From Neolewinella aurantiaca (lineage in GTDB: Bacteria; Bacteroidota; Bacteroidia; Chitinophagales; Saprospiraceae), in the NCBI RefSeq assembly GCF_008014675.1, contig NZ_VOXD01000003.1, forward strand, positions 124,001-188,000: a stretch of 64,000 nucleotides of DNA. The letters are read 5' to 3'. The position numbers were made by a program, and so were the translations under genes. The stretch's first letter is position 1. Each line of letters starts with the position of its first letter. Positions 2,772-53,064 of the stretch are shown here, piece after piece. The notes beneath the pieces were generated by a model, which saw nothing but the letters and a program-made list of their open reading frames with translations, was not told the origin of the DNA and did no database searches.

Positions 2772-4721
2772 ATGAATTTCTGTGCCACCAAAGTCTGTTT
2801 CGCTCTTTCCCTCCTCTTATACCTGGCAGGAACTGCCGCCGGGCAAAACATCATCGCTGATCCGGGATTCGAAGGCTGGACCGGCTCCAACAACGGAGGG
2901 AATACACTGGACGGAATGACGGATTGGTACAACGCCAACGGCACGGCAGACCTACACCACACCAGCCGTAACCCCGGCACAAATTTATCGGGGCTCAACC
3001 CCTGCCCGCTGGGCAACGGACGAACCGACTGCGGCTTCCCGGTTGCCGGCAGCGGGGTAATGGGTGCCTACAAAGCCAATGGCGCTGATGGTTCCAAAGA
3101 ATGGGCCGGCGCCCAACTGACGGAGCCGATGGTGCCAGGAGATTGTTACGAAATTTCTTTCTGGGTGCAGAATAAAAGAGATGACCCCGCCAGGGAATTG
3201 GTGACCAATCAGTGGGGTGTGTTTTTTTCCGAAACGATGCAGCCCCAGTTCAATCCTAATCTTTTCAACTTCGACATCGTGGCCAACCAGTGGGTAGCCT
3301 CCGACCAGGTTATTGATGGCTCGGAATGGACGCTCGTGGAACTCAACTTCGAAGCAGATCAAGCCTACGAATACCTCTTTCTCGGATTTATGGGTAATGT
3401 GAGCGATGCCACGCAGCGCCTTTACAACGATGACCCTCAGCTGGGTTGCTACGTTTGGTTCGACGAATTGTACGTTCGCCACGTAGACGTAGAGGTTCCC
3501 GAAACCCTCAACATCTGTGCGGGCGAAACCACCACCATCGACTTCGTATCCGATTACAGCATCAACTGGACCGACGGTGAGATTTCCGATACCACCCGGT
3601 CATTTGAGGTGACTCCGCTGGTTTCCACAACCTACTACGTTACCGCAACGGGGAATACCGGTTGTACCAAAACGGATTCGGTAACCGTGGAGGTTAACTT
3701 CCCCGTCAGCAGCATTTATCCGCAGGAACTCTGTAACTATTCAGCTCCGGTTGCTGTCGATGAAGGCATTGGCCCCGGCCGGTGGGTAGGACCCGGAATT
3801 ACGGATGAGGTTGCAGGGATTTTCGATCCGGTGGTGGCCGGCTCCGGGGTACACACGGTTTACTTCCTGGCAGAAGGTGGCTGCGCAGAGAGTGGCAGCT
3901 ACGAAATAATAGTGCGGGAAGTTGCTCCGCCACAAATCAGAGTGGACCTGGTGGAAGGTTGCACGCCCCTTACGGTGAACATAACCGAGGAACTCACCAC
4001 CGAGCCAGGAGTCGGATTTCGCTGGACTTTCGGCGACACAACGATCATTTCCACCACGGCTGAAACCGCCTATACTTTCCACGAAGGAGGCGAGTACGAA
4101 GTGTCGGCCACCCTGGTTTATTCTCCGGTTTGTGAAGTTACCGCTACGCTACCTGCGGCGATTCGGGTGAACCAAAGTCCGGTTGCTGACTTCCTCACCA
4201 CGCCGACGAGGCTCACCAATCTGGAAGGTTCCGCCGTATTCAGTGATCGCTCCGAAGGGATGATCACCGAGTGGTACTGGGACGTGGCAGGCCTGACGAG
4301 CAGCGATGGCCCCGAAGCACGCTACGATTTTACATCTGCCGGAGAGTATGATGTATTTCTGGAAGTTACCGATGCCGCCGGTTGTTCGGACAGTATCCGC
4401 CAGGCAGTGACGGTTTTGCCCGACGCGAAGGTGTACCTCCCAACGGCCTTTTCGCCCAATTTCGATGGCATCAACGATCAGTTTCAGCCCGGCATTGCGG
4501 GGCGGGTTACTGATTACGAACTCAGCATTTTCAACCGGTGGGGTGGTGTCGTATTCACCTCTTCCGATCAAAACATCCTGTGGGATGGCCGTGGAAACGA
4601 CGGGGAGCCGGCAGACGTAGGCACTTACCTCTTTGTGCTCACTTACCGTGCCGAAGACGGGGCAGGAACCACGACAACGACTCCGGTTTCAGTTTCCGGA
4701 AGTATCACTTTACTGCGGTAA
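2772..4721 (+). CDS. Secreted PKD-domain protein with gliding-motility-associated C-terminus
   Basis: The product is a secreted protein of 649 residues. A signal peptide (MNFCATKVCFALSLLLYLAG) ends at AAGQ. The N-terminal third resembles a carbohydrate-binding-like jelly roll (DPGFEGW, then CYEISFWVQNK). Ig/PKD-like modules follow, seen in motifs such as WTFGD and WYWDVAG. The last 90 residues contain PTAFSPNFDGINDQF, NRWGGVVF and WDGRGNDG, the hallmark of the CHU_C (type B) T9SS sorting domain. The protein is therefore expected to be surface-attached or released by T9SS, perhaps as an adhesin. The ATG at 2772 is chosen because it directly precedes the signal peptide; an upstream in-frame TTG exists at 2736. 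The neighbours are also T9SS cargo. Confidence 0.88.
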   Translation: MNFCATKVCFALSLLLYLAGTAAGQNIIADPGFEGWTGSNNGGNTLDGMTDWYNANGTADLHHTSRNPGTNLSGLNPCPLGNGRTDCGFPVAGSGVMGAYKANGADGSKEWAGAQLTEPMVPGDCYEISFWVQNKRDDPARELVTNQWGVFFSETMQPQFNPNLFNFDIVANQWVASDQVIDGSEWTLVELNFEADQAYEYLFLGFMGNVSDATQRLYNDDPQLGCYVWFDELYVRHVDVEVPETLNICAGETTTIDFVSDYSINWTDGEISDTTRSFEVTPLVSTTYYVTATGNTGCTKTDSVTVEVNFPVSSIYPQELCNYSAPVAVDEGIGPGRWVGPGITDEVAGIFDPVVAGSGVHTVYFLAEGGCAESGSYEIIVREVAPPQIRVDLVEGCTPLTVNITEELTTEPGVGFRWTFGDTTIISTTAETAYTFHEGGEYEVSATLVYSPVCEVTATLPAAIRVNQSPVADFLTTPTRLTNLEGSAVFSDRSEGMITEWYWDVAGLTSSDGPEARYDFTSAGEYDVFLEVTDAAGCSDSIRQAVTVLPDAKVYLPTAFSPNFDGINDQFQPGIAGRVTDYELSIFNRWGGVVFTSSDQNILWDGRGNDGEPADVGTYLFVLTYRAEDGAGTTTTTPVSVSGSITLLR

Positions 4722-4748
4722 ATATTTACGGGCAGTATGATGCATCAG

Positions 4749-4769
4749 GGCGCCGCAGCGCAGGTGCAA
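4749..4769 (-). repeat. Interspersed repeat copy, variant spacing
   Basis: On the minus strand it reads TTGCACCTGCGCTGCGGCGCC, which has two extra bases in the middle relative to the consensus. It lies in the 189-bp gap between two T9SS cargo genes, which otherwise shows nothing recognisable. Confidence 0.5.
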
Positions 4770-4910
4770 GGAGAGGTTGAAAAACCCCGTCCGGGCCCAA
4801 CGCCAGAAATAAACAGCTTGCCCGCTTTTTTCTATCCCTTTTTCCAAAGGTCTTCCTTCAGCCGGGAGTGCGCCGGGAACCGGGAATTCGCTCACTAAAA
4901 TTCAATTCGA

Positions 4911-7265
4911 ATGCGTTTACTTTTATCACTTTTTTCCGCGGTCCTTCTTTGCGGCACCCTGTCTGCGCAGGCAACGCTTTTGCAGGACATAAGAACCGGG
5001 AGCCTGAGTTCCAGCCCCACAAGGTTCTTCGAATACAATGATAAAGTACTCTTCCGTGCTACAACCGACTCGCTGGGTACCGAACTTTTCATCACCGACG
5101 GAACCGCCGACGGAACGTCGGTCCTTAAGCACATCAACGACAGTACTTCTGTCTCGGGCGGATCGAGTAACCCGGACAACTTCCACCTCTTCAACGGTCG
5201 TGTTTACTTCCAGGCGACAGACGGAATACACGGCGCTGAGCTGTGGTCTACCGACGGTACCACCGCCGGGACGCAACTGGTGTATGACCTCAACACCGGC
5301 AGTGCAACGGGAGGCGTGCTTGATCCGATTACGTACAATGATCGCCTTTACTTTACGGCCATCGACACCTTTACCAACGCCGAATTGTTCCTGCTGAACG
5401 ACGCTGGAGACAGTACAATCCTTGCTGCCGAAATCGTACCAGGACTGAGCGGTGGCCAGCCGCTGTCGAAAATCGTTCATAACGATACACTTTACTTTGC
5501 TGCCCTCGACGGAACCCCCGGTTTCCGCCCGCCTACTCACCTCTGGAAGAGCGACGGTACTGAAGCAGGGACAATGCAGGTGACGAATCAGGTTGAGCCG
5601 ATCCTGTCGCCGAACGGGTTCACTTCCCACAATGGTTTGCTGTACTTCTCGGCGGCAACAGAGTTCTTCGGTCAGGAACTCCACGTTTATGACGGAGATT
5701 CTGTCCGCCGAATTTCAGACCTCCGGGCTGCAGAGTCTAACGGAGCTCCGGGCAACATCACTTCCTTTGGCGGTAAACTGGTGTTCTCCGCCAATTCAGA
5801 TAGTCTGGGCACAGAGCTTTACGTTAGTAACGGTACGCCTGACGGTCACCAACTGATCGACATCAACCTGACCCCGAACACCAACGGAATCGGAACCCGC
5901 AACAGCCGTCCGAATGCTTTTGTCATCATCCCGGGATTGGCGGGCGCTGATCAGCTGGCCTTCGTTGCTGAAGACAGCGTTGCCAACCAGTACCATTTCC
6001 TGACCTTCAACGACGCGGGTGAGCCGGTCGTTGAATCGATCCTGGACCGCTACGGAGTCTCCGTTACCCGCGGTAACGATATGATCAATACCGGGTCGTG
6101 CCTCTACTTCGGGGGGGAGAACGATGAATTTGGCATCGAGATGTGGAAACTCAGCCTGATCGGAAATTCAGTACCTGAACGGGTAACGGACATCAACGCA
6201 GGAGAGGCAAATGCTTCGCCCAACGAGTTGGCCCGGGCGGGCAACTTCATTGTCTTCGAAGCTACCGATAGCCTTGGCCGCGAACTATGGTCTTTGCCGG
6301 CAGATGTGGCTGGATACAGCTTTGCTGACGCGGCGGCCGCTCCACTGAGCAGCGGCGATACGCTCGACTTTGGTTTGGTACTGGAAGGTGAAGTTGCCAA
6401 CGGCCTCATCACCCTCACCAGTACCGGCACCGGCCCAACGGCCGCAGTGGTAACCAACGCTGAAGCCCTTGACGGAACCTTTGCCCTGACGCTGCCCGCA
6501 GGACTCGACAGCATCGCTCCCGCTGCCATGCGCAACCTGGCTGTGAGCTTCAGCCCTGCCTCCGGAGGAGACTTTCTGGACAGTATGACCGTTTCTGTCT
6601 ATGGCGCTAACGGCCCCGAAGAGCTGACCTTCTACCTCAAAGGATCTGCAGAAGCACTCGTTGGTGCCCTCGAGGCCAGCGCAAATGAGGTAGTACTCAC
6701 CGGCTCCGAAACCGTCGATTTCGGCGAAGTGCTTAACTTCCAGGACTCTACCATCGCGGTAGTGCTGAACAACACCGGTAACGGACCGCTGATGTACGTT
6801 CCCAGCCTCAGCGTTGGTGACCAGTTCACCGCTGACGACCTTGACGCTACGCAGATTGAAGCCGGAGGGTTTGATACCATCTTCGTCACGTTTGCGCCCG
6901 AATCCGTTACGGCATACGAAGACACGCTCGTGCTTGCGCTGACGCTGAATGCAGAAATCACCGACGAACTGGTGATCCCTCTTACCGGGAACGCCGTGGT
7001 AAACAGCATCAACGACTTTGGTATCCGGACGCTGCGCGCCTTCCCGAACCCAACTACTGATGTATTGCGGATCGAACTGGCTGCTCCGCTCAGCGGAGCA
7101 ACGGTACGGGTTTTCGACGTGAACGGTCGCCGGATGTCGGAGAGCCGCTGGCCCGAAGGCGTAAGCATCAGCGACGTTTCCCTGGGCAACCTGCCCGCTG
7201 GCATGTACACCATCGATGTGCAGGGCCGCAACGGCCGCGTACTGCTGGAGGTGGTTAAGCGGTAG
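4911..7265 (+). CDS. Secreted ELWxxDGTxxGT-repeat protein with T9SS type A domain
   Basis: The product is a secreted protein of 784 residues. A short signal peptide (MRLLLSLFSAVLLCGTLSAQ) is followed by several ELWxxDGTxxGT repeats (GTELFITDGTADGT, GAELWSTDGTTAGT, HLWKSDGTEAGT, GTELYVSNGTPDG), a module common in large secreted proteins of marine Bacteroidota and predicted to form a beta propeller. From about residue 475 there are two tandem choice-of-anchor-D/ASH-like beta domains (DFGLVLEGEV; DFGEVLNFQD). The C-terminus (FPNPTTDVL to LLEVVKR) is a T9SS type A signal. The substrate is unknown; adhesion or matrix attachment is plausible. The ATG at 4911 directly precedes the signal peptide. 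Confidence 0.88.
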   Translation: MRLLLSLFSAVLLCGTLSAQATLLQDIRTGSLSSSPTRFFEYNDKVLFRATTDSLGTELFITDGTADGTSVLKHINDSTSVSGGSSNPDNFHLFNGRVYFQATDGIHGAELWSTDGTTAGTQLVYDLNTGSATGGVLDPITYNDRLYFTAIDTFTNAELFLLNDAGDSTILAAEIVPGLSGGQPLSKIVHNDTLYFAALDGTPGFRPPTHLWKSDGTEAGTMQVTNQVEPILSPNGFTSHNGLLYFSAATEFFGQELHVYDGDSVRRISDLRAAESNGAPGNITSFGGKLVFSANSDSLGTELYVSNGTPDGHQLIDINLTPNTNGIGTRNSRPNAFVIIPGLAGADQLAFVAEDSVANQYHFLTFNDAGEPVVESILDRYGVSVTRGNDMINTGSCLYFGGENDEFGIEMWKLSLIGNSVPERVTDINAGEANASPNELARAGNFIVFEATDSLGRELWSLPADVAGYSFADAAAAPLSSGDTLDFGLVLEGEVANGLITLTSTGTGPTAAVVTNAEALDGTFALTLPAGLDSIAPAAMRNLAVSFSPASGGDFLDSMTVSVYGANGPEELTFYLKGSAEALVGALEASANEVVLTGSETVDFGEVLNFQDSTIAVVLNNTGNGPLMYVPSLSVGDQFTADDLDATQIEAGGFDTIFVTFAPESVTAYEDTLVLALTLNAEITDELVIPLTGNAVVNSINDFGIRTLRAFPNPTTDVLRIELAAPLSGATVRVFDVNGRRMSESRWPEGVSISDVSLGNLPAGMYTIDVQGRNGRVLLEVVKR

Positions 7266-44358: not shown

Positions 44359-44431
44359 GGGCCCGTAGCTCAGGGGATAGAGCACCTGACTTCTAATCTG
44401 GCGGTCGCAGGTTCGAATCCTGCCGGGCTCA
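44359..44431 (+). tRNA. tRNA-Arg, anticodon TCT; integration target
   Basis: The acceptor is GGGCCCG/CGGGCTC with one G-U pair, the D-arm GCTCAGGGGATAGAGC, the anticodon loop CTTCTAA (TCT) and the T-arm GCAGG/CCTGC with TTCGAAT. The anticodon stem CCTGA/TCTGG has a T-T mismatch at pair 29-41. A TACCTTCG box lies just upstream at 44341. The 3' end from 44416 doubles as the left attachment site of the integrated element. Confidence 0.93.
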
Positions 44432-44432
44432 C
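44416..44432 (+). other. Left attachment site (attL) in tRNA-Arg(TCT)
   Basis: AATCCTGCCGGGCTCAC: the T-arm/acceptor end of the tRNA plus one base. It is identical to 53048-53064, so insertion leaves the tRNA intact. Confidence 0.92.
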
Positions 44433-44435
44433 ACT

Positions 44436-44472
44436 AATCGGCTGTAAATCAATGATTTATGGCCGATTTTTT
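44436..44472. terminator. Element-borne terminator replacing the tRNA's own
   Basis: AATCGGC pairs with GCCGATT, with an inner GTAAATC/GATTTAT stem, followed by T6. It lies just inside attL and can end the tRNA transcript and, from the other side, the element's operon. The tRNA's original terminator is now beyond attR at 53068. Confidence 0.75.
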
Positions 44473-44500
44473 GTTTTTAGGTATCATTGTCATTTTCCTG

Positions 44501-44800
44501 TCACAAACCATTTGCGGCCCTCACCTTTGCGAATTTTATGACTGATCGCACGTCTACTGATGCGCCGTGTGCGCCGTCTATTGCTTCAAGTCTACCATCT
44601 GCAAGACAGTTCCTTACGGTGCCTGGGCTTACCCTTAACATCTTTGCGGCCTGCTTTACTGTCACAGCTTCCAACCTTTCAAAGATTTCAACTTCTGAAA
44701 TTTGACCTGGGAACTCATAAGGATGGCGGTTTGCCATTTCTTCCCTCACGATCCGCCGAAAGTCATCTTCCCCCATGTGGGCTAAAGTGCTAATCTGCAT
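44501..44800 (-). CDS. Excisionase-like HTH protein
   Basis: The product is a 99-residue protein. Residues 47-80 (VTVKQAAKMLRVSPGTVRNC, then LADGRLEAID) match the winged HTH of the excisionase/MerR-like HTH_17 family. It could be the recombination directionality factor or a regulator of the element. It starts inside the end of the nuclease-like gene (11-bp overlap), making it the last gene of a rep-nuclease-HTH operon and the closest to attL. Confidence 0.75.
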   Translation of the reverse strand: MQISTLAHMGEDDFRRIVREEMANRHPYEFPGQISEVEIFERLEAVTVKQAAKMLRVSPGTVRNCLADGRLEAIDGAHGASVDVRSVIKFAKVRAANGL

Positions 44801-45287
44801 CGGTGGCGGGTTTATTGATTGCGAAAAATGGTCTGGTTAGTTGGTATCTGCTGTCTTGCGGTTGTGCAAGGTCACTTAGTTCTTTTGCTGTTAGGCGGCG
44901 GGTAAACGTCATCAGCTGAAGCGGGTAGTACGTCTTCCCTGAATGGTGCTTTGCTGCTGCCTTCAGTCTGGACAATCTGCCAGAGTAGATGCAACCCTCA
45001 AAAGCATCTATGAAAAACAGGACCACAGGTAAACCGGTAGCTTCGATTGTCAGGTACTTTTCATGATCGCCGGTATCTATTCCGGTACATGGTCGGGAGT
45101 ATTGGCGCGGGTAAGTTTTCACGTCTACGGCAAAAACTCCGTGCTCGGTCATCAGTACTCGGTCGATAGGGTGGGCGGGGCCGATGGGCGGAGAATAGAC
45201 GTGCCAACCTTGCGCGGCAAAATAGCTGTCTGCAATCGCCTCTCCAGCGTCGCCACGTTGGGTTGTGGGTAGTTGTTGGAAGGTCAT
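44790..45287 (-). CDS. PD-(D/E)XK nuclease-like protein
   Basis: The product is a 165-residue protein. The N-terminal half has the layout of restriction-endonuclease-like folds: GDAGEAIADSYFAAQGW (helix with conserved E), then PIDRVLMTEHGVFAVDVKTY, giving the D...(D)xK core. Holliday-junction resolvases and NERD-type nucleases share this pattern. It could process replication or packaging intermediates of the element. Its start codon overlaps the rep stop codon (TAATG), so it is translationally coupled to the initiator gene. Family assignment is by pattern only. Confidence 0.62.
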   Translation of the reverse strand: MTFQQLPTTQRGDAGEAIADSYFAAQGWHVYSPPIGPAHPIDRVLMTEHGVFAVDVKTYPRQYSRPCTGIDTGDHEKYLTIEATGLPVVLFFIDAFEGCIYSGRLSRLKAAAKHHSGKTYYPLQLMTFTRRLTAKELSDLAQPQDSRYQLTRPFFAINKPATDAD

Positions 45288-46987
45288 TATGCGGCGGTTT
45301 CGGGGTGCTGTGATTTGTTAAGTGTGCCTTCAGTAGTTCCGGGCCGTGGCATCCAAAAGCCTAAACTGGCTGTATTCCATCTTGCAGGGGCGGACTGTAC
45401 TGCTCTTTTGATAGCATCGTGGTATTCTTTGTCTTCCTTCCATTTAGGGATGTGTGAGGTGAACCAGTCCACAATCCCGTATTTACGGGCTGTTTTCTGA
45501 CAATCTGCCATGGCTTTTTCAAACTGCGCATTTCCAGTCATTAAGTCTAATTCAGCATAGCTTGCGCGGATGTCAAACGATATTTTCCTCTGTACTCCCC
45601 AGATAGGTTTAGGTTCTTTCGTCAATGGGGATAACTGTACATCCATTGCTCCGAAAGCATCGTAATTCACTACTTCTATCTTTTCGTTTCTGTCAGCCCT
45701 TTTATTTGTCCCTTTGCGGATCTTCAAAAGACTGCGAGAACTGCGTTTGTGAATGTCAGCCAAGACAGATAGATTCTCTAATTGTCTAAAGTCAAAATTC
45801 CCGTTCAACAGGTCGTCAATAGAATTATCTACTGATTCGATGTACTCGATGTCTTCAACCTTGCTATCGGCTTTTGCAGCATTCAGCACCAACCTTTCTT
45901 CTCTGTACTTCCTGCGGATCGAACAGACAACCGTCTCGCGCTCTAAACGTATCTTGTTAGCTTCGGGGCCGTAATAGTCATCTAGGGCGTTTATAGCGTC
46001 TCTGGCATCCTTTCTCGCCTGTGCTATGTCGTTATCTCTCCGTTCGATTATCGAGCGGCTAAACTCCTTTATGGCTTCCTTGCTGTTAAGCTCGTACTCT
46101 TTAGAGGCGATAAAAGTCGTGCGGACATCATCAGGAGGAAAGCCACAGAAGCGACGCAAAACAGCAGCCCTAAGTTTTACTTCGTTTCTGTGTATAGGTT
46201 TGGACGTGTCTAGTCCAAACCGCTCACAATTTTCTTTTTGGTAGGGCTTCGTTTCAAACTCAGGAGACTTATCATAAATCGTCAGTCTGTTATCTGCTGA
46301 CTTAGCCCCAATATCTAGCCCGGTTAATATTTTTCCAGTAGAGTCGAAGAAAGGTCGTAGACTACTACGGCCAAAGTTCTTTACGTCTTCCTCTAACCAG
46401 ATTCGATGCACTTTGTCAAGATAATTATACCCGTCGATTGCAACATCAATGCCGGTATATTGGTGGACAACTGCATCCAGCTTGCGAAGTAACCGGACAA
46501 CGTAGTTTGTCCATCCCTTTCGGTACAAAACATGATTGTACATTGTCAATTCAGAATATCCACAACCGTCGTTACTTCGTTGCAGCAACTTCGCCACACG
46601 TTCCCCGTCTATGCGGACGGTGTAGGCTTCGCGGTAAAACTTAGTTTTAGTGCGGCCCGTCCTCAATCCGTCAGCGTCTTCCAACCCGTAAGAAATGACT
46701 ATCCCATCGCGTAAATTCAAAATGTCAGGTGGCGTTTCCCCATCGCTTAAAAACAGAGCATTGCTCAATGTGGCTACAAACTTATCACAAGCAATAGCCT
46801 GTGGGCCGTGCTCAATCTTTGGGCCTCCGGTGGCGTTTGATTCCGTCCCGGTGTCCTGAGAACCCCCGATATACTTAGTGGGGGTCGTCGCGCCATTTGA
46901 AACCCGATCTGGGTGCTTAAATAGCTTGCCCGGCATCGGCATTTTTAGTACCTTTATGGCATTAGTTTTTAGGCTATGTTCAGGCAT
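45287..46987 (-). CDS. Rep_trans-like replication initiator of the element
   Basis: The product is a 566-residue protein. The central part matches the replication-initiation-factor (Rep_trans, rolling-circle) family: a DVAID pair of acids at 181-185, GLDIGAKSADNRLTIYDKS at 223-241 and HRNEVKLRAAVL at 266-277. In this family a tyrosine nicks the double-strand origin; the candidate here is Y238 or a nearby tyrosine. A coiled region follows (290-400), and the C-terminus is unassigned. A strongly structured non-coding stretch lies upstream (47120-47290) and could hold the origin. Rolling-circle replication would let the element amplify after excision. Confidence 0.68.
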   Translation of the reverse strand: MPEHSLKTNAIKVLKMPMPGKLFKHPDRVSNGATTPTKYIGGSQDTGTESNATGGPKIEHGPQAIACDKFVATLSNALFLSDGETPPDILNLRDGIVISYGLEDADGLRTGRTKTKFYREAYTVRIDGERVAKLLQRSNDGCGYSELTMYNHVLYRKGWTNYVVRLLRKLDAVVHQYTGIDVAIDGYNYLDKVHRIWLEEDVKNFGRSSLRPFFDSTGKILTGLDIGAKSADNRLTIYDKSPEFETKPYQKENCERFGLDTSKPIHRNEVKLRAAVLRRFCGFPPDDVRTTFIASKEYELNSKEAIKEFSRSIIERRDNDIAQARKDARDAINALDDYYGPEANKIRLERETVVCSIRRKYREERLVLNAAKADSKVEDIEYIESVDNSIDDLLNGNFDFRQLENLSVLADIHKRSSRSLLKIRKGTNKRADRNEKIEVVNYDAFGAMDVQLSPLTKEPKPIWGVQRKISFDIRASYAELDLMTGNAQFEKAMADCQKTARKYGIVDWFTSHIPKWKEDKEYHDAIKRAVQSAPARWNTASLGFWMPRPGTTEGTLNKSQHPETAA

Positions 46988-47000
46988 AGTTTAGTTATTA

Positions 47001-47036
47001 GCCCTGCTAGGACTGCAATCCGGTAGGGCTTTTTTA
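47001..47036 (+). other. Hairpin with T-tract just upstream of rep
   Basis: GCCCT and AGGGC arms (47001-47029) are followed on the plus strand by T6, the opposite direction to the gene. It lies 14 bases upstream of the rep start, so it may block antisense transcription or act in the rep leader RNA. A similar structure is at 51415-51465. Confidence 0.5.
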
Positions 47037-47119
47037 TTGCCCCACACAGGGTGGTTAAAAAATTAGGGGAGGCAGCAGAATCTGTATTTCTGCTTTGTGG
47101 TTTTTTGACGTTGGAGCGG

Positions 47120-47290
47120 ACGTTGCAGCCCGTCTAACATGAGACTTTTTATAGGCCATCTAAGCCACAGCGTGGCCAGACGGGGGAAAGCGTGGGTGGG
47201 CTGTTAGCACGTCAGCATTGGAGGCTAACAGCCCGTCACGCATTAGGATGAGTGGCCCGGATCAGGAAGTCTCAAAACCTTAGCCGGGCC
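47120..47290. other. Multi-hairpin non-coding region, candidate replication origin or RNA
   Basis: The 388-bp gap between capsid and rep genes contains several strong inverted repeats: CCCGTCT/AGACGGG (about 47131 and 47178), GCCAC/GTGGC (47164-47176), a perfect 11-bp pair GGGCTGTTAGC/GCTAACAGCCC (47198-47234) and GCCCGG/CCGGGC (47252-47288). No protein frame fits. Position next to the Rep gene favours an origin; a packaging signal or structured RNA is also possible. Confidence 0.55.
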
Positions 47291-47375
47291 TCTCATATTG
47301 AATTCTTTTAGGTCAGGGAAGCGGTATGTGCAGCCGCTCCCCCTTAACCAAAAACACATTATGAAAAAAAGGCTC

Positions 47376-48542
47376 TTAAGCGGTTGCTACATTTTCAATC
47401 CGAACAATATGTTCAGGGTGGAACAACTGCATATCCGCACGGTAAATCATGATGAACTGGGTCATGTCATGATCTGCTTTTGATTTCTCAGAAGTGATCT
47501 CGTACTTCCCACCAACACCGAGTTTACAGGTTGAGAAATCGCCAACGTACACCCGCGTCTGGTCGTTGTCTTCGCCGTACTCAACGCCGACCGCAGTATG
47601 TATAACAATGGGTACTCCACTCAAACCAGCGGGCTTAGTGATCTGCTGGCCGAGCGTGTCCTTCAGCGATTGCAGCTGAAGCCATGCAACCGGGTGCATG
47701 ATGACAGCAATTTTAGACGGATCAACGTTTTTAGCCAGTACTTTTTGGACTGATTGCAAAATCATGTCCCAAGTCAGCGTACTGTCTGAAGCGTCGACAG
47801 TTTGAACGCCGATATAACCGTCAATGCCGGTAATTTCTGTACCACCAGCACCAGACAAAATCTGTTTAGTGATAGTGTGCTCTAGGTCGGCGTTGAAGGC
47901 GTTGTTAATGACATCCGGCCAATCTGTCACAGCGTCACGGGTAACGTTGTTTGCCATGTCTACACGGGAGGCAAAGTTTACTAGGTTCCACGTAATAGGG
48001 GCAACGGTTAGGTTCCCTGCTGCTATTTCTGCTGTCTCAGCGTGAACGTTGAAACCTGCGTAATTAGTCAGCTTTGCAATAGAGGTATTCTGTGCAACCC
48101 CGTCTCGAATGTCGACCATCAGTTTGCCCGGTGCACCATTTTGCAACGGCTTTAGAATGACCTCACCTGTAACGGCTGGATCCTGAATTGTACTCGCTGC
48201 TGTTGCGCTTGTTACGGCTCGTTTCATTGCTGAATGAATAGTACCCTCAGTAATGCTCGTGACTCCCTGCTCAATAATTGAGCGAATACCGGCGGCTTTT
48301 GCTGGAATAGTGCCTACCGGCTGTTGCCCGGACTGCCGGAACTCCTCTTTAGCTGCCATGCGTCTTTTCATGACGCGCCCGCTCTCGATCTCGCTTGTAA
48401 GCTCGTCGATTTCGTCTTGCAGTTGGTTCCATCGGCGTTCCTCCGATCCAGTCATCTGACGACCTTTTACATCGTCATTCAGGGTTTTTTGTTCGCGCAA
48501 AACTCTTGCTCGTGTTTCCAATAATTCTTTCTCTGATCTCAT
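47376..48542 (-). CDS. HK97-fold major capsid protein
   Basis: The product is a 388-residue phage capsid protein. Residues 1-75 form a charged coiled coil (ELLETRARVLREQKTLND, DELTSEIESGRV) like the HK97 delta domain that acts as built-in scaffold. The shell domain follows, with VAQNTSIAKLTNYAGF, ITWNLVNFASRVDMANNVTRD, KIAVIMHPVAWLQLQSLKD, GVPIVIHTAVG, VYVGDFSTCKLGVGGKYEI and the closing MIYRADMQLFHPEHIVRIENV, the standard capsid pattern. No protease gene is nearby to remove the delta domain. It is the only virion gene in the element. An encapsulin is less likely because encapsulins lack the delta domain and cargo genes are absent. Confidence 0.9.
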   Translation of the reverse strand: MRSEKELLETRARVLREQKTLNDDVKGRQMTGSEERRWNQLQDEIDELTSEIESGRVMKRRMAAKEEFRQSGQQPVGTIPAKAAGIRSIIEQGVTSITEGTIHSAMKRAVTSATAASTIQDPAVTGEVILKPLQNGAPGKLMVDIRDGVAQNTSIAKLTNYAGFNVHAETAEIAAGNLTVAPITWNLVNFASRVDMANNVTRDAVTDWPDVINNAFNADLEHTITKQILSGAGGTEITGIDGYIGVQTVDASDSTLTWDMILQSVQKVLAKNVDPSKIAVIMHPVAWLQLQSLKDTLGQQITKPAGLSGVPIVIHTAVGVEYGEDNDQTRVYVGDFSTCKLGVGGKYEITSEKSKADHDMTQFIMIYRADMQLFHPEHIVRIENVATA

Positions 48543-48581
48543 AATTCAGTATTTACTAATAGGGTTATTAAAAGGGGTTAA

Positions 48582-48992
48582 TTACTCAGATACTTGTGGG
48601 TAATATTCTTTCACGGCAGCACCAAAGGCCCGGAGTAATTCAACTTCGGCAGTTTCCATTTGGCGGGCCATTGTTCCGGCTGTTTCAAGGTCACCAGTCA
48701 GCTCAGCCAGTTCCATCTTCGCACTACACGACAGAAGAAAACAAAACATATTGTGAGCATGGGGTGAGGTGCTTATAATGGGGATTGCATCTAAAGGCAA
48801 CCCCAACCGTTGCAGGTGTTTACAGGCAAATTCAGTCAAGACCAGTTTGTTGAGTTCAGCTGGGCCAACCTGCCCAACTAAAATCATATAGAGTTGAGTA
48901 AGGCTAATTCCCAGCCGTTCGGACCAAGCTTTCAGACTTTCCTTGTGGTCAACTTTTACTCTCATCGTGATGGTTGTTTTCTCGTTTCTCAT
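48582..48992 (-). CDS. Ribbon-helix-helix-like protein of the element
   Basis: The product is a 136-residue protein. Residues 5-40 (TTITMRVKVDHKESLKAWSE, then RLGISLTQLYMILV) have the strand-helix-helix pattern of ribbon-helix-helix DNA-binding proteins. The remainder is helical without known motifs. It lies 39 bp upstream of the capsid gene and is probably co-transcribed with it, so it could regulate capsid expression or act in DNA packaging. The family is not certain. Confidence 0.55.
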   Translation of the reverse strand: MRNEKTTITMRVKVDHKESLKAWSERLGISLTQLYMILVGQVGPAELNKLVLTEFACKHLQRLGLPLDAIPIISTSPHAHNMFCFLLSCSAKMELAELTGDLETAGTMARQMETAEVELLRAFGAAVKEYYPQVSE

Positions 48993-49154
48993 TATCTTTT
49001 TTTTACTGGTTAAAGGGTATTGTACTTTTTAGCTTTTAACTAACTGTAATGCAAAGGTGAGGCAATTGCACATCGGGTCCGGCAGACTCTGTTTACCTGA
49101 TTGCTTTGTCTTGTACTGCAAATGTAGGGGTAAAGGGGAGTGCACACGTGTGCA

Positions 49155-49724
49155 CTAATTGAGCTGGGCCAATTCTGCCTCAGCTATTTCCCTAGCAACA
49201 GGAGGTAAGTAATGTCTAATTCTGTTTATCATTCCTTTTATCCCATTGGCCCCTTCCCTACGACCTCTCGTGCATACTTCGTCCCATGCATTTTTAAATG
49301 TTCCCCCCGATTTACCGTGCTTTTCTCCTATTGCTTTATGTGCAGCGAGTACCCCCCCAAACTCATTTGCCGGGTGGTAAATACCTGCATTATGCAAGTA
49401 AGCATAGTAAAGAGCTATCTCTTTTGCAGGTAGCTCATTTAAATGCCTCTCTGCAGTAGGGCGGTCGTAGGTCATAACGTGTATTGCATCAAGTAGACGT
49501 GACGCGCAAACTTCGCAGGTGGTATGATGCCAGAGTGAGCCGGATTGACTGCCCTCCTTATCGAACTTCAGGTGATGGAAGTAATGGAGCTGGCTTTCGT
49601 GATCTTTAGCCAATCGGCGTATCATTTCCAATGTCAAAGGGTCAAGGTCTGACAGGGTAGCGGCTGGGTTGGCTTCAGATAGTAGCCGGGAAAACAGTTG
49701 TTGTATTTCAAATAGTGGTAACAT
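49155..49724 (-). CDS. Unknown helical protein of the element
   Basis: The product is a 189-residue soluble, helix-rich protein. Notable segments are a CxxC (CEVC, with upstream HH) that might bind metal, the hydrophobic-helical IALYYAYLHNAGIYHPANEF, and a basic stretch RGRREGANGIKGMINRIRHY near the end. I recognise no family. It sits between the membrane-protein genes and the RHH-capsid pair in the minus-strand series. Confidence 0.6.
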   Translation of the reverse strand: MLPLFEIQQLFSRLLSEANPAATLSDLDPLTLEMIRRLAKDHESQLHYFHHLKFDKEGSQSGSLWHHTTCEVCASRLLDAIHVMTYDRPTAERHLNELPAKEIALYYAYLHNAGIYHPANEFGGVLAAHKAIGEKHGKSGGTFKNAWDEVCTRGRREGANGIKGMINRIRHYLPPVAREIAEAELAQLN

Positions 49725-49855
49725 GGTGGTATTGGGTTAATAATGAAAATTGGTTCCAAGTTAAAAAGGTCCAAAAAGTGCGTTTACTCACACGGGGTTT
49801 GGGCGGCGATGTTTTGTCGGAAAGATGATAGACTTTTTACCCCCCTACCCATCGT

Positions 49856-49951
49856 CTACGGCCCACCAACCAGTAAGGCTACCAGCATTAAAGCTATGCC
49901 TACACTAACAAAGACGTGCAGCAGGTCAGGCTGCTGTGTGCTCTTACTCAT
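49856..49951 (-). CDS. 31-residue membrane peptide
   Basis: MSKSTQQPDLLHVFVSVGIA followed by LMLVALLVGGP: a short polar head and a single hydrophobic helix. Its ATG overlaps the last codons of the four-helix membrane protein by 8 bases (AATGAGTAA), so translation is probably coupled. It may be a holin-like or regulatory micropeptide. A chance frame cannot be excluded, but composition and coupling favour a real gene. Confidence 0.5.
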   Translation of the reverse strand: MSKSTQQPDLLHVFVSVGIALMLVALLVGGP

Positions 49952-51386
49952 TGGTCAGGTCGTTTAGTAGTTGCTCGTAGTGCTTCACCCATTGCTGGTT
50001 GTTCGCTATGGCTTCAGCTGTCCGGGGCTTTATCTCTCCTGTCTTACGCTGTTGCACTTTAGCCTTCTGAGTGTGCTCACCCAGCCTTCTACGGTACTGC
50101 ATCAGACGCGAATAGGCTTTAGCCGCTTCAGGGGTCTGCTGTGTGCTTTTCGTGTGTGTGTGAGGCTTGTGTGCAGCGTGTATTTCGCGTGTATTTCGCG
50201 TGTTAAAGGTCGCACTCGGTTTCTGTGTGTGTGGGTCATCCGCTTTTTGATAAAATCGCGGTTCGTTTTTTGTGTGTGCTGTTGCTATGGGTGGTGCGGT
50301 GGTTGCCTCACGATCTGGCTTAGAGTCAGTCCACAGCGACACGTAAGGTAAACCACTATCCAGACGTTCACGGGTGCCGAAGATGTAAGCTATCAAACGA
50401 CGTGCACCACGTTCTATCCTGTGGCTAACTACTGCCTTCAGGTCAGCCCATACCGATGGTTGGTTGTGGAACTCGTTGGGCTCGATTTCTTCGGCTATCT
50501 CACTACCAGCTTCTATCTGAAGAATTAGATAGAACATCAGATAAAAAACCAGTTGGCCCGCAAAGGTCAGGACGGCGAAGATGTAACCGTTTGCCGTGGC
50601 TTCAGCTGCTGTTGTCGAGGCTGCTTTGCTTGCTTCAGCCTTCACCGTGCTAGTCGCTTCGTTCCGTCCTCTGATTGCCTCTGTTAAGGCTTGCCCGCGT
50701 TCGGTAGCGATAATGGCTGTGGTGGCGTTGTATGCTGCCTCAGCTTCATCAATCAACCGTGCATACTTGCGTTGCATCTTCTTACAATAACCGTTACCTC
50801 TGCTCGCACAACTTGCGAAGTCTTGCCAAAGCTTTTCATTGCTCGCCTTTGTCGCTTTGAACTGCTGACGGGCAGCGTTAGCCCGGATTGTGTAGGGTGT
50901 AAGTAGGGCGGCGGTATCTGCTGCAAAAGCTAGTTGTAGGCTGTCAAGGTTGGCAGTCGGTGCTTCTGTGGTAATCAGTTTACCGGCATCCATACTACCC
51001 ATGAAGGAAAGCACTAACGAAAGCAAACCAACCATGACCAAACCACCACGACTAAAGCCTGTCACCAACTTGTGACGCTTCCTTTTATCGGGATCGTCGG
51101 CAAACTGATCTTTGACAACCCACGGCCTAATAGATGGCTTTGCTAGTTTCCTGTTTGCCAGCTCGATGAAAACACCGATGAGCACGGCGGCGGCAACTAC
51201 TCCTGTACTGGCAACACTTAGCCCTCTGCCAGCGATTGCGTCGGATAGTAGGCTGTAAACTGCCAGAGCTAAAGAGGCAGCAGATAGGAACTGTCCGATG
51301 TTAGCAATGGTGTAATAGGCTTTTAGGTTGGTACCGTGTTCGTTATAGAACGCCCTGTCTTTGGGCGTTGTCTTTAAAAGTCTCAT
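49944..51386 (-). CDS. Four-helix membrane protein of the element
   Basis: The product is a 480-residue membrane protein. Hydrophobic helices are at about residues 28-48 (IGQFLSAASLALAVYSLL), 60-78 (VVAAAVLIGVFIEL), 115-132 (GGLVMVGLLSLVLSFMG) and 268-292 (GYIFAVLTFAGQLVFYLMFY). Between helices 3 and 4 is a long, Ala-rich coiled coil that holds the only cysteine pair (CASRGNGYC). The C-terminal 170 residues are cytosolic, rich in Thr, His and Lys, and unstructured-looking. I recognise no family. It might serve in cell-surface modification, superinfection exclusion or release. Confidence 0.65.
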   Translation of the reverse strand: MRLLKTTPKDRAFYNEHGTNLKAYYTIANIGQFLSAASLALAVYSLLSDAIAGRGLSVASTGVVAAAVLIGVFIELANRKLAKPSIRPWVVKDQFADDPDKRKRHKLVTGFSRGGLVMVGLLSLVLSFMGSMDAGKLITTEAPTANLDSLQLAFAADTAALLTPYTIRANAARQQFKATKASNEKLWQDFASCASRGNGYCKKMQRKYARLIDEAEAAYNATTAIIATERGQALTEAIRGRNEATSTVKAEASKAASTTAAEATANGYIFAVLTFAGQLVFYLMFYLILQIEAGSEIAEEIEPNEFHNQPSVWADLKAVVSHRIERGARRLIAYIFGTRERLDSGLPYVSLWTDSKPDREATTAPPIATAHTKNEPRFYQKADDPHTQKPSATFNTRNTREIHAAHKPHTHTKSTQQTPEAAKAYSRLMQYRRRLGEHTQKAKVQQRKTGEIKPRTAEAIANNQQWVKHYEQLLNDLTNE

Positions 51387-51414
51387 CTTTGCAATGTTTA
51401 CTGTTTAGTGAATA

Positions 51415-51465
51415 CCCCGCCCGATGTTGCTTTCCACGGCTTTTGCATCGGTGCGGGGTTTTTTA
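51415..51465 (+). other. Hairpin with T-tract upstream of the membrane-protein gene
   Basis: CCCCGC (51415-51420) and CCGATG pair with CATCGG and GCGGGG (51445-51458), followed on the plus strand by T6. As at 47001, the T-run points against the gene direction and the hairpin is about 28 bases upstream of the start codon. Confidence 0.5.
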
Positions 51466-51467
51466 TT

Positions 51468-51599
51468 TTAGTTGGTCTTTGATCGCTTGTTGACTGCAAT
51501 TTCAAGTTGCTCCAACCTTTTCAGGATTTCGGTTAGTATCATGACTCGTTTCTGCATCATGGCTAATTCCTCTGAGGTGCTAAGATTTAAGTTTTGCAT
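51468..51599 (-). CDS. 43-residue helical protein
   Basis: The frame begins MQNLNLSTSEELAMMQKRVM and continues ILTEILKRLEQLEIAVNKRS to KTN, a single amphipathic helix with coiled-coil character. It starts 10 bases after the integrase stop codon in the same direction, so it is probably co-transcribed with it. It resembles small dimerising accessory proteins found beside integrases, but the function is unknown. Confidence 0.55.
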   Translation of the reverse strand: MQNLNLSTSEELAMMQKRVMILTEILKRLEQLEIAVNKRSKTN

Positions 51600-51609
51600 A
51601 GAATGGGGT

Positions 51610-52896
51610 TTAATTGTTGAAGAATTTTTTTGCAATTCTAACGGCGCGGGCCGTTGGGGTTTCTTTAGAATAGTGCTCTACCATTTCGCGGGTGCCATGT
51701 CCCGTCAGCCCTTGTATGTCAGTCAGGGGCATACCGTTTGCAGCGTGAATTGTTACAAATGTGCGGCGGGCCGTGTGGGTGCTTATTAGCTTGTACATGG
51801 GGATTTGCTCAACGGTGTCTCGTTGACCACGGCGGGCAACCCGTTTGAAATTTTCTGTAAACCCTGCCATCTGAGCTATTTCCTGCAAATATTTATTTGC
51901 TTTTTGGTTAGTCATTACCCGGCCAAAATTCCAGCCGTATTTGCTGGCTATTTTGTCTGCGGTAGGGTGAACGGGAATGGTAATCTTCTTACCCTTCCCT
52001 TTTTTCGTGATGATCTCTAACAACTTCACTCCATCTGTCTCAACTATATTTTTACCATTGATCTCCTGCCAGCGATTAAAGCGAAGTCCTAAGTAGCAGT
52101 TGATAACAAACAGGTCACGCAGTTTCCGTAGACCGGGCCGGTGAGAAAGGTCTAAAGCAATAATTCGGTTTAGCTGGTCTTTGTCTAATGCAATGTTTTC
52201 CCGTGCTTGCCTAGTTAGGCCAAGTTGAGCAGATAACTTTATCTCATTAGGGTTGAACTGAGGTATTAAGCCCTCAACGTAGGCTTTAGAAAGTGCCTCC
52301 TTTAGTCGCTTCATGTGGCGTGAAATTGTTACATCTAAAGGTGCGGACGGCTCGTTACCTAGGAAGTCTCGGTAAGCCTCAAATAAGCTTAGCTTTACTT
52401 CATCCATTCCGATTTGATACCCAACTGATTTTACAAAACGCTCAAATGCACGGTAGCTGGCTAATTCGTGCTTTTTGGTTCCATCCTTCAACCGGGCCTC
52501 TTTCTGCCTTCGGTCAACGTAACTCTTATAATAGGTTAGTACGTCCGTTGCTGATCCTTCTGGAGCTTCGCCATCCCGTAAGAACTTCTTTACTAGAAAG
52601 CGGAACTTTTCAGGGGTAAGTAAATACAGTTCTTTACGTCTCCGATAATCAGTAATAAGTGAAACCGTAAAATGAGTTAAGTCATCCAAACGTTGATTTA
52701 CAAATGAGTAGTCAGGATAAAGGTCAACGTACCGATCACTAATGCGGCAACTCTTTTTATCCCAATGCTTCACCTTTACGTATTCTCCGGTAGCAACGTG
52801 TGCTCTTTTACCCTCTGTGAGTGAAACGGACATTCGGATAGGGTTAAATTCATCCTCTATTTTGTTTAAAACAATAAACGTTGGTGCTCTACGCAT
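51610..52896 (-). CDS. int: Tyrosine recombinase (integrase)
   Basis: The product is a 428-residue Bacteroidota-type phage integrase. It has an N-terminal arm-binding domain (1-90), a SAM-like core-binding domain (110-215) and the catalytic domain with R272 (GLRFNRW), K298/K299, H374-R377 (HTARRTF), H400 (GLTGHGT) and the nucleophile Y409 (EHYSKET). All catalytic residues are present, so it should be active. It lies beside attR and reads inward. It is expected to recombine the 17-bp core in tRNA-Arg(TCT). Confidence 0.95.
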   Translation of the reverse strand: MRRAPTFIVLNKIEDEFNPIRMSVSLTEGKRAHVATGEYVKVKHWDKKSCRISDRYVDLYPDYSFVNQRLDDLTHFTVSLITDYRRRKELYLLTPEKFRFLVKKFLRDGEAPEGSATDVLTYYKSYVDRRQKEARLKDGTKKHELASYRAFERFVKSVGYQIGMDEVKLSLFEAYRDFLGNEPSAPLDVTISRHMKRLKEALSKAYVEGLIPQFNPNEIKLSAQLGLTRQARENIALDKDQLNRIIALDLSHRPGLRKLRDLFVINCYLGLRFNRWQEINGKNIVETDGVKLLEIITKKGKGKKITIPVHPTADKIASKYGWNFGRVMTNQKANKYLQEIAQMAGFTENFKRVARRGQRDTVEQIPMYKLISTHTARRTFVTIHAANGMPLTDIQGLTGHGTREMVEHYSKETPTARAVRIAKKFFNN

Positions 52897-52967
52897 GGTA
52901 ATTATTTTGTGTAAAGGTATCGCTTGAGGTATCAGGTAGTTAGTAGGGTTAATACTAAAAACAAAAA

Positions 52968-53013
52968 CTGTTTTTACTTAAAATGCTGTAAATCAGAATT
53001 TTAGTAAAAACAG
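52968..53013. other. Inverted repeat near attR, candidate integrase arm site
   Basis: CTGTTTTTAC (52968-52977) pairs perfectly with GTAAAAACAG (53004-53013), with near-complementary bases continuing inward. It lies in the AT-rich 150 bp between the integrase start and attR, where the int promoter and arm-type sites are expected. Confidence 0.5.
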
Positions 53014-53047
53014 GCTGCTTTTTTACCATAAATTGTACTAAAAGCCC

Positions 53048-53064
53048 AATCCTGCCGGGCTCAC
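53048..53064 (+). other. Right attachment site (attR)
   Basis: AATCCTGCCGGGCTCAC is identical to attL. The bases before it (AAAGCCC) do not complete a tRNA, so only the left copy is functional. Confidence 0.92.

Follow-up and report, generated by a model that had tools for sequence, protein, structure and literature searches.

In a 64,000-nt window (the whole stretch of DNA that was analysed) of contig NZ_VOXD01000003.1 from Neolewinella aurantiaca, an island of approximately 8.6 kb (44416-53064) lies at the 3' end of a tRNA-Arg(tct) gene. The last 17 nt of this tRNA gene are repeated exactly 8632 bp further on (53048-53064), a match with a chance expectation of about 2e-6 (20 kb, both strands), and the 17-bp duplication of the attachment site (att) described in the original prediction, which was made from the sequence alone, is thus exact at 44416-44432 and 53048-53064. 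Between the att copies the minus strand encodes a tyrosine integrase, a 480-aa membrane protein, two proteins of 189 and 136 aa of unknown function, an HK97-fold major capsid protein (MCP), a replication-initiator-like (Rep-like) protein, a PD-(D/E)XK-like protein and a helix-turn-helix (HTH) protein. Ten intact proteins on one strand had been predicted; nine open reading frames (ORFs), all of them open and on the minus strand, were found and the tenth was not identified. The G+C content is 0.469 in the element vs. 0.547 and 0.545 in the flanks. We conclude that the island is not a prophage remnant and is likely a phage satellite with a capsid gene. Its features are the following:

44359..44432, plus strand: tRNA-Arg(tct), the integration target, whose 3' end is attL (ARAGORN).
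44416..44432, plus strand: attL core of 17 bp, identical to 53048-53064.
44501..44800, minus strand: excisionase-like HTH_17 protein of 99 aa, beside the tRNA (HTH_17 4.4e-7, over the cut-off; phrog_2907 excisionase 9.6e-5).
44790..45287, minus strand: PD-(D/E)XK/NERD-like protein of 165 aa (NERD 8e-4 and PDDEXK_5 3e-3, both below the cut-off; phrog_5018, function unknown, 5e-7).
45287..46987, minus strand: replication-initiator-like protein of 566 aa (motif pattern only; clusters with proteins of loci L045, L060, L067 and L079).
47376..48542, minus strand: HK97-fold MCP with delta domain, 388 aa (Phage_capsid 7e-23; TIGR01554 3.8e-26).
48582..48992, minus strand: 136-aa protein upstream of the MCP (Pfam and PHROG matches at E 0.05 or worse only).
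49155..49724, minus strand: 189-aa protein (no match below E 0.1 in Pfam, PHROG or NCBIfam; distant homologues in loci L060 and L062).
49944..51386, minus strand: membrane protein of 480 aa, the hallmark of these islands (hydropathy peaks; 37 database proteins including itself).
51468..51635, minus strand: 55-aa ORF overlapping the integrase end, possibly not a true gene (Pfam gave nothing and PHROG a single match at E 0.22).
51610..52896, minus strand: tyrosine integrase of 428 aa (Phage_integrase 1.7e-8 and Phage_int_SAM_5 1.7e-11, both over the cut-off; phrog_1 1.7e-26).
53048..53064, plus strand: attR core of 17 bp, an exact repeat of attL, followed by a terminator-like stem.

Residues 5-382 of the MCP align to positions 2-383 of the 385 of TIGR01554, so that both the delta domain and the shell are covered nearly end-to-end, as had been proposed. 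The integrase and the HTH protein were likewise recognised correctly; a pattern check of the integrase found the R, K, HxxR, GH and Y patterns, which we take to be the catalytic residues, all present. Matches to nuclease families exist for the PD-(D/E)XK-like protein, which has homologues in six other loci, and remain below the cut-off. The Rep_trans-like identity of the 566-aa protein, presumed from a motif pattern in an eight-member alignment, is without profile support: Pfam returned one unrelated DUF (E 0.2), PHROGs and NCBIfam nothing, and the PDB unrelated chains only, at E at least 0.44.

The island appears to have been inserted into a site that is continuous in relatives, and the stem behind attR is perhaps the displaced terminator of the tRNA gene. 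A 416-aa gene upstream of the island has homologues in 12 of 21 genomes of the genus, its own included, and at four of the seven loci examined (L104-L110) such a homologue adjoins tRNA-Arg(tct). At L105, L106 and L107 the tRNA gene beside it is uninterrupted, with another ORF within about 220 bp, while the stretch of L109 stops 165 bp past the tRNA gene. As the right-hand neighbour at L105-L107 is unlike that in the window, these loci support an uninterrupted site without representing a strict empty site.

An intact, near-syntenic element of 8.9 kb was found in Lewinella sp. W8, its end adjoining tRNA-Asp, with a 15-nt att repeat. Its gene set comprises an integrase, the membrane protein, proteins of 193 and 167 aa, an MCP, a Rep-like, a PD-(D/E)XK-like and an HTH protein. 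Identity to the window proteins amounts to 59% for the membrane protein, 45% for the PD-(D/E)XK-like protein, 42% for the Rep-like protein, 40% for the integrase and 27% for the MCP; no match was obtained between its 193-aa and 167-aa proteins and those of 189 and 136 aa in the window. In the position of the 136-aa protein, L010 possesses an RHH_1 protein (4.5e-5) and W8 a protein with a NikA-like match below the cut-off, neither of which is matched by the window protein in BLAST. From att to att the window island measures 8632 bp, that of W8 8879 bp and a third island 8912 bp (its third att copy has three mismatches in 22).

No portal, large terminase subunit (TerL), protease, tail or lysis domain was recognised in the nine window proteins with Pfam and PHROGs, in the five scanned with NCBIfam or in the eight scanned with PADLOC (integrase excluded), seven of which had no match at all. 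The W8 proteins scanned gave no match to portal, TerL, head protease or connectors either. When 86 proteins taken from 24 loci were compared with PHROGs, 54 families matched, and the 25 of these that were listed include no portal, TerL or tail family. The predicted lack of terminase, portal, protease, tail and lysis genes thus stands, also for the proteins of unknown function, apart from a small terminase subunit (TerS) match of the HTH protein over its HTH (phrog_57, 6.8e-4). This match ranks behind the excisionase phrog_2907 and is the sole, weak hint of a packaging gene in the window element.

Control searches show how these absences are to be read. Among 32 genomes, PF05065 was found in six, the TerL family phrog_9 in one and the portal family phrog_12 in two. 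Five of the six PF05065 genomes are those of the MCP islands, and in each of them the single match is the island gene itself; phrog_9 and phrog_12 found nothing in these five. The sixth genome (G736) has a portal and is also missed by phrog_9, so that the absence of a phrog_9 TerL says little. In the whole bacterial family PF05065 occurred in 16 of 398 genomes, with 15 matches over the cut-off (L099 lies below). A portal was detected at eight of the 11 MCP loci outside islands, and the three without (L091, L098, L099) are all cut by contig ends. The same portal model found none in L004, L010, L011 and L050; the window was assessed with Pfam and PHROGs instead. A portal near the MCP, as in HK97-type prophages, is therefore found neither in the window nor in the four other islands.

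The island MCPs also form a lineage of their own. In a tree of 27 sequences (five island, six of nine metagenome relatives, nine prophage and seven phage MCPs), island and metagenome MCPs separate from the 16 prophage and phage MCPs with support of 100/100, and of 100 in a tree without the phages; the phages were picked by similarity to L011, L004 and L012, which limits the sampling. The MCPs of the window and L050 have no match in annotated phage records, that of W8 matches one record at 21.6% identity and that of L011 matches 177, with listed identities of 22-26%. P0003 (an MCP) and P0020 (a membrane protein), each on a contig of 22,217 nt, probably lie on one contig.

The compact tRNA-integrated element that had been predicted as a new satellite family does have relatives, all of them other compact elements and none a full prophage, and no description of this island family was found in the open-licence literature. 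Counting weak and partial matches, 47 of the 398 genomes surveyed in the bacterial family contain the membrane protein. Of 370 genomes drawn from the class, only the one that holds the window matched, few of those shown being members of the family. Altogether 43 loci were read, 40 fetched ones plus L004, L010 and L011; 42 of them match the membrane model, L011 having been included via its MCP. The MCP is shown by only three of the 42 (L004, L010, L050). The hallmark of the wider group is therefore the 480-aa membrane protein, and the capsid gene, contrary to the original prediction, does not define the family. The C-terminus of the membrane protein is basic (window, W8, L050) or Cys-rich and HNH-like (L010, L011, L045); in L011 a 283-aa protein with hydrophobic segments and a Cys-rich C-terminus resembles those of L010 and L045. 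The window and 22 of the loci include a tRNA gene in the stretch read, and 16 of these 23 sequences show exact att-type repeats of 13-24 nt, among them a repeat inside the tRNA at L055 and a first repeat at L011 that delimits a different segment. To date, all members of the island family come from a single bacterial family, of the Lewinella/Saprospira type; NCBI assigns Neolewinella agarilytica to Saprospiria, Saprospirales, Lewinellaceae.

A second island resides in the same genome (L045, contig C72, 3112-10947) at tRNA-Pro, with 7761 bp and a 23-bp att; it encodes the membrane protein, Rep-like, PD-(D/E)XK-like and DUF5681 proteins, and no MCP was seen. A contig from a viral collection (L014, 9469-11491) carries a distant homologue of the membrane protein beside tRNA-Met and phage-like ORFs, and may belong to a satellite or to a phage.

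MCPs of one cluster occur in five sequences (window, L004, L010, L011, L050), so that besides the window and W8 elements there are three further MCP-bearing islands in the bacterial family; the island MCPs are 20-33% identical to one another. L050 combines the MCP with a prohead protease (Peptidase_S78 1.8e-43) and a TerS (Terminase_4 1.1e-14), and L011 combines it with a TerS (9.8e-8), an AAA_25 match below the cut-off and a primase-family match. Proteins like S49 head maturation proteases are encoded in islands L046 (9241-10242) and L077 (11985-13202), whose genomes (G367, G703) show no PF05065 match. One island family thus presents a graded series: no recognised head gene, S49 protease, MCP, MCP with TerS, and MCP with protease and TerS. 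The capsid-bearing island proper of L011 extends from 5815 to about 14748; in front of it, a C-5 DNA methyltransferase gene and its neighbours (2829-5836) lie between the tRNA-Lys end and the second att copy. Two TerS-gene stretches of L050 (401-785 and 9136-9523) are 92.6% identical and 8.7 kb apart, which suggests two related islands in tandem; a circular contig was considered, and the ends do not overlap.

Satellites of the phage-inducible chromosomal island (PICI) and P4 type carry an integrase, a small HTH regulator and their own replication gene and insert site-specifically. The window element resembles PICIs in its site-specific integrase, its att at a tRNA and its AlpA-like regulator (HTH_17, which we take to cover AlpA, and an excisionase family), and differs from PICI/P4-like satellites in its MCP. 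General libraries gave no match to Psu/Sid capsid-size proteins or alpha primase, and no dedicated model was run for these or other redirection proteins. Capsid-forming PICIs (cf-PICIs) encode MCP, protease, portal, connectors, TerS, TerL and HNH (PMC10690885). The window shares the satellite-encoded MCP and L050 adds protease and TerS, whereas portal, TerL, head protease and connectors were not recognised in the window and a protease is found in L050 only. The Streptomyces satellites MulchRoom and MiniFlayer also have their own capsid genes, but are described with TerS, TerL, portal and scaffold and without an obvious replicase (PMC10690885). Charybdis elements lack an HK97 MCP (PMC12324425), and VEIMEs and tycheposons are marine integrative elements proposed as satellites. 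Further literature on mechanism includes PMC11389934, PMC10187409 and PMC10803314.

The closest precedent, in view of which the premise that no known satellite looks alike was too strong, is SaPIbov5, a cos-type island (PMC8569155). Its Ccm (355 aa), HK97-like and equipped with a delta domain, alone redirects the capsid size of phage phi12, and no other SaPIbov5 protein was detected in the small capsids; Ccm is cleaved, sits in pentamers and forms no capsids by itself, the rest of the capsid coming from the helper (PMC8569155). The window element shares an HK97 capsid homologue without a recognised portal or protease gene. The two differ in their host and with respect to the hallmark membrane protein.

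By a narrow balance, we favour an integrated phage satellite that depends on a helper and makes a small shell wholly or mostly from its own MCP. The satellite reading is based on the tRNA insertion with att, the near-syntenic W8 element, an MCP lineage that in the sampled tree is restricted to islands and the lack of a recognised portal, TerL or tail, and also on the other head genes of related islands (L050, L011, L046, L077) and the closely similar att-to-att lengths of three islands. A helper phage would infect or be induced, the island would be excised by the integrase together with the HTH protein, and the circle would be replicated by the Rep-like protein. The MCP may then form all or most of a shell fitting approximately 8.6-8.9 kb, with portal, terminase, tail, lysis and, for the window copy, prohead protease supplied by the helper, and the completed particle would deliver the island to a new cell. 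Alternatively, the MCP could join the pentamers of a helper capsid and force it to a smaller size, as Ccm of SaPIbov5 does with phi12, the sole protein of that island needed for size redirection (PMC8569155). No protease was recognised in the window island, which fits such co-assembly, and since Ccm is 24% identical to the helper's protein (PMC8569155), the distance of the island MCPs from phage MCPs does not decide against this alternative. We nevertheless consider it the less probable of the two, a possibility well short of even, because in L050 the MCP is accompanied by a prohead protease from the island itself, which we infer to be the better fit to an own shell, and because the island MCPs form a separate clade remote from phage records.

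Other explanations appear far less probable. An MCP acting as an interference factor, which would poison phage capsid assembly and protect the cell while the island spreads otherwise, is in keeping with an MCP that is optional among these islands and with the match of the HTH protein, over its HTH, to the PADLOC model mad1 (8.4e-7); we regard it as improbable, since TerS with MCP in L011 and TerS and protease with MCP in L050 point to packaging and PADLOC recognised none of the seven other window proteins scanned. An integrative mobilizable element moved by conjugation, with the Rep-like protein as MOBT-type relaxase and the capsid gene as passenger, would agree with the relationship of MOBT relaxases to Rep_trans proteins (PMC11389934) and with NikA-like matches below the cut-off in small proteins of L010 and W8. 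It seems quite improbable: Pfam and PHROGs recognised no coupling protein in the window, and capsid-associated genes recur across the island group. A simple Walker A pattern was absent bar one probable chance match, a weak negative as the same pattern missed two AAA_25 proteins. Helper independence of the element and its kin, in which an HK97 shell would combine with a rolling-circle-type initiator and with the membrane protein into a tailless, membrane-associated particle that packages and delivers 8-9 kb of DNA, would be a route unknown for HK97-fold viruses and is highly improbable. Decay from a larger prophage of the HK97 type would account for the absence of most phage genes; with an intact near-syntenic element in W8, open ORFs, the att repeat in place and an MCP outside the prophage groups, it is rejected as scarcely conceivable.

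Several observations weigh against the satellite reading. Neither a helper nor virions nor an excised circle have been observed for the element. In its own genome the island's MCP is the only PF05065 match, and phrog_9 and phrog_12 both found nothing; a helper would therefore have to enter from elsewhere or belong to a different type. A resident helper was sought without success: besides phrog_9 and phrog_12, phrog_2 was matched at 22.4 bits, and it is given no weight because it matched every one of the six genomes searched (at up to 31.2 bits) as well as 11 of 14 controls. Virion-packed satellites might be expected among viral contigs, yet pattern-seeded scans of limited reach found no MCP or Rep relatives there and, for the membrane protein, a single distant one. 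The MCP, membrane protein and Rep-like protein of the window have no match in annotated phage records, nor the membrane protein in plasmid records. The missing TerL is weak evidence, our own TerL model finding a TerL at only four of the 11 non-island MCP loci (L013, L092, L094, L095); because this model and phrog_9 both miss known cases, the missing portal is the stronger evidence. No MCP was seen in 39 of the 42 membrane-protein loci, some of them cut by contig ends, and the argument from length depends on three islands only, MCP-less islands spanning 7.4-12.7 kb.

As a phage satellite, the island would add a satellite family in Bacteroidota, a phylum for which none was found in the open-licence literature, and would bring its own capsid lineage. 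The graded series of head genes stops short of the full cf-PICI module, which would make the origin of capsid-forming satellites testable.

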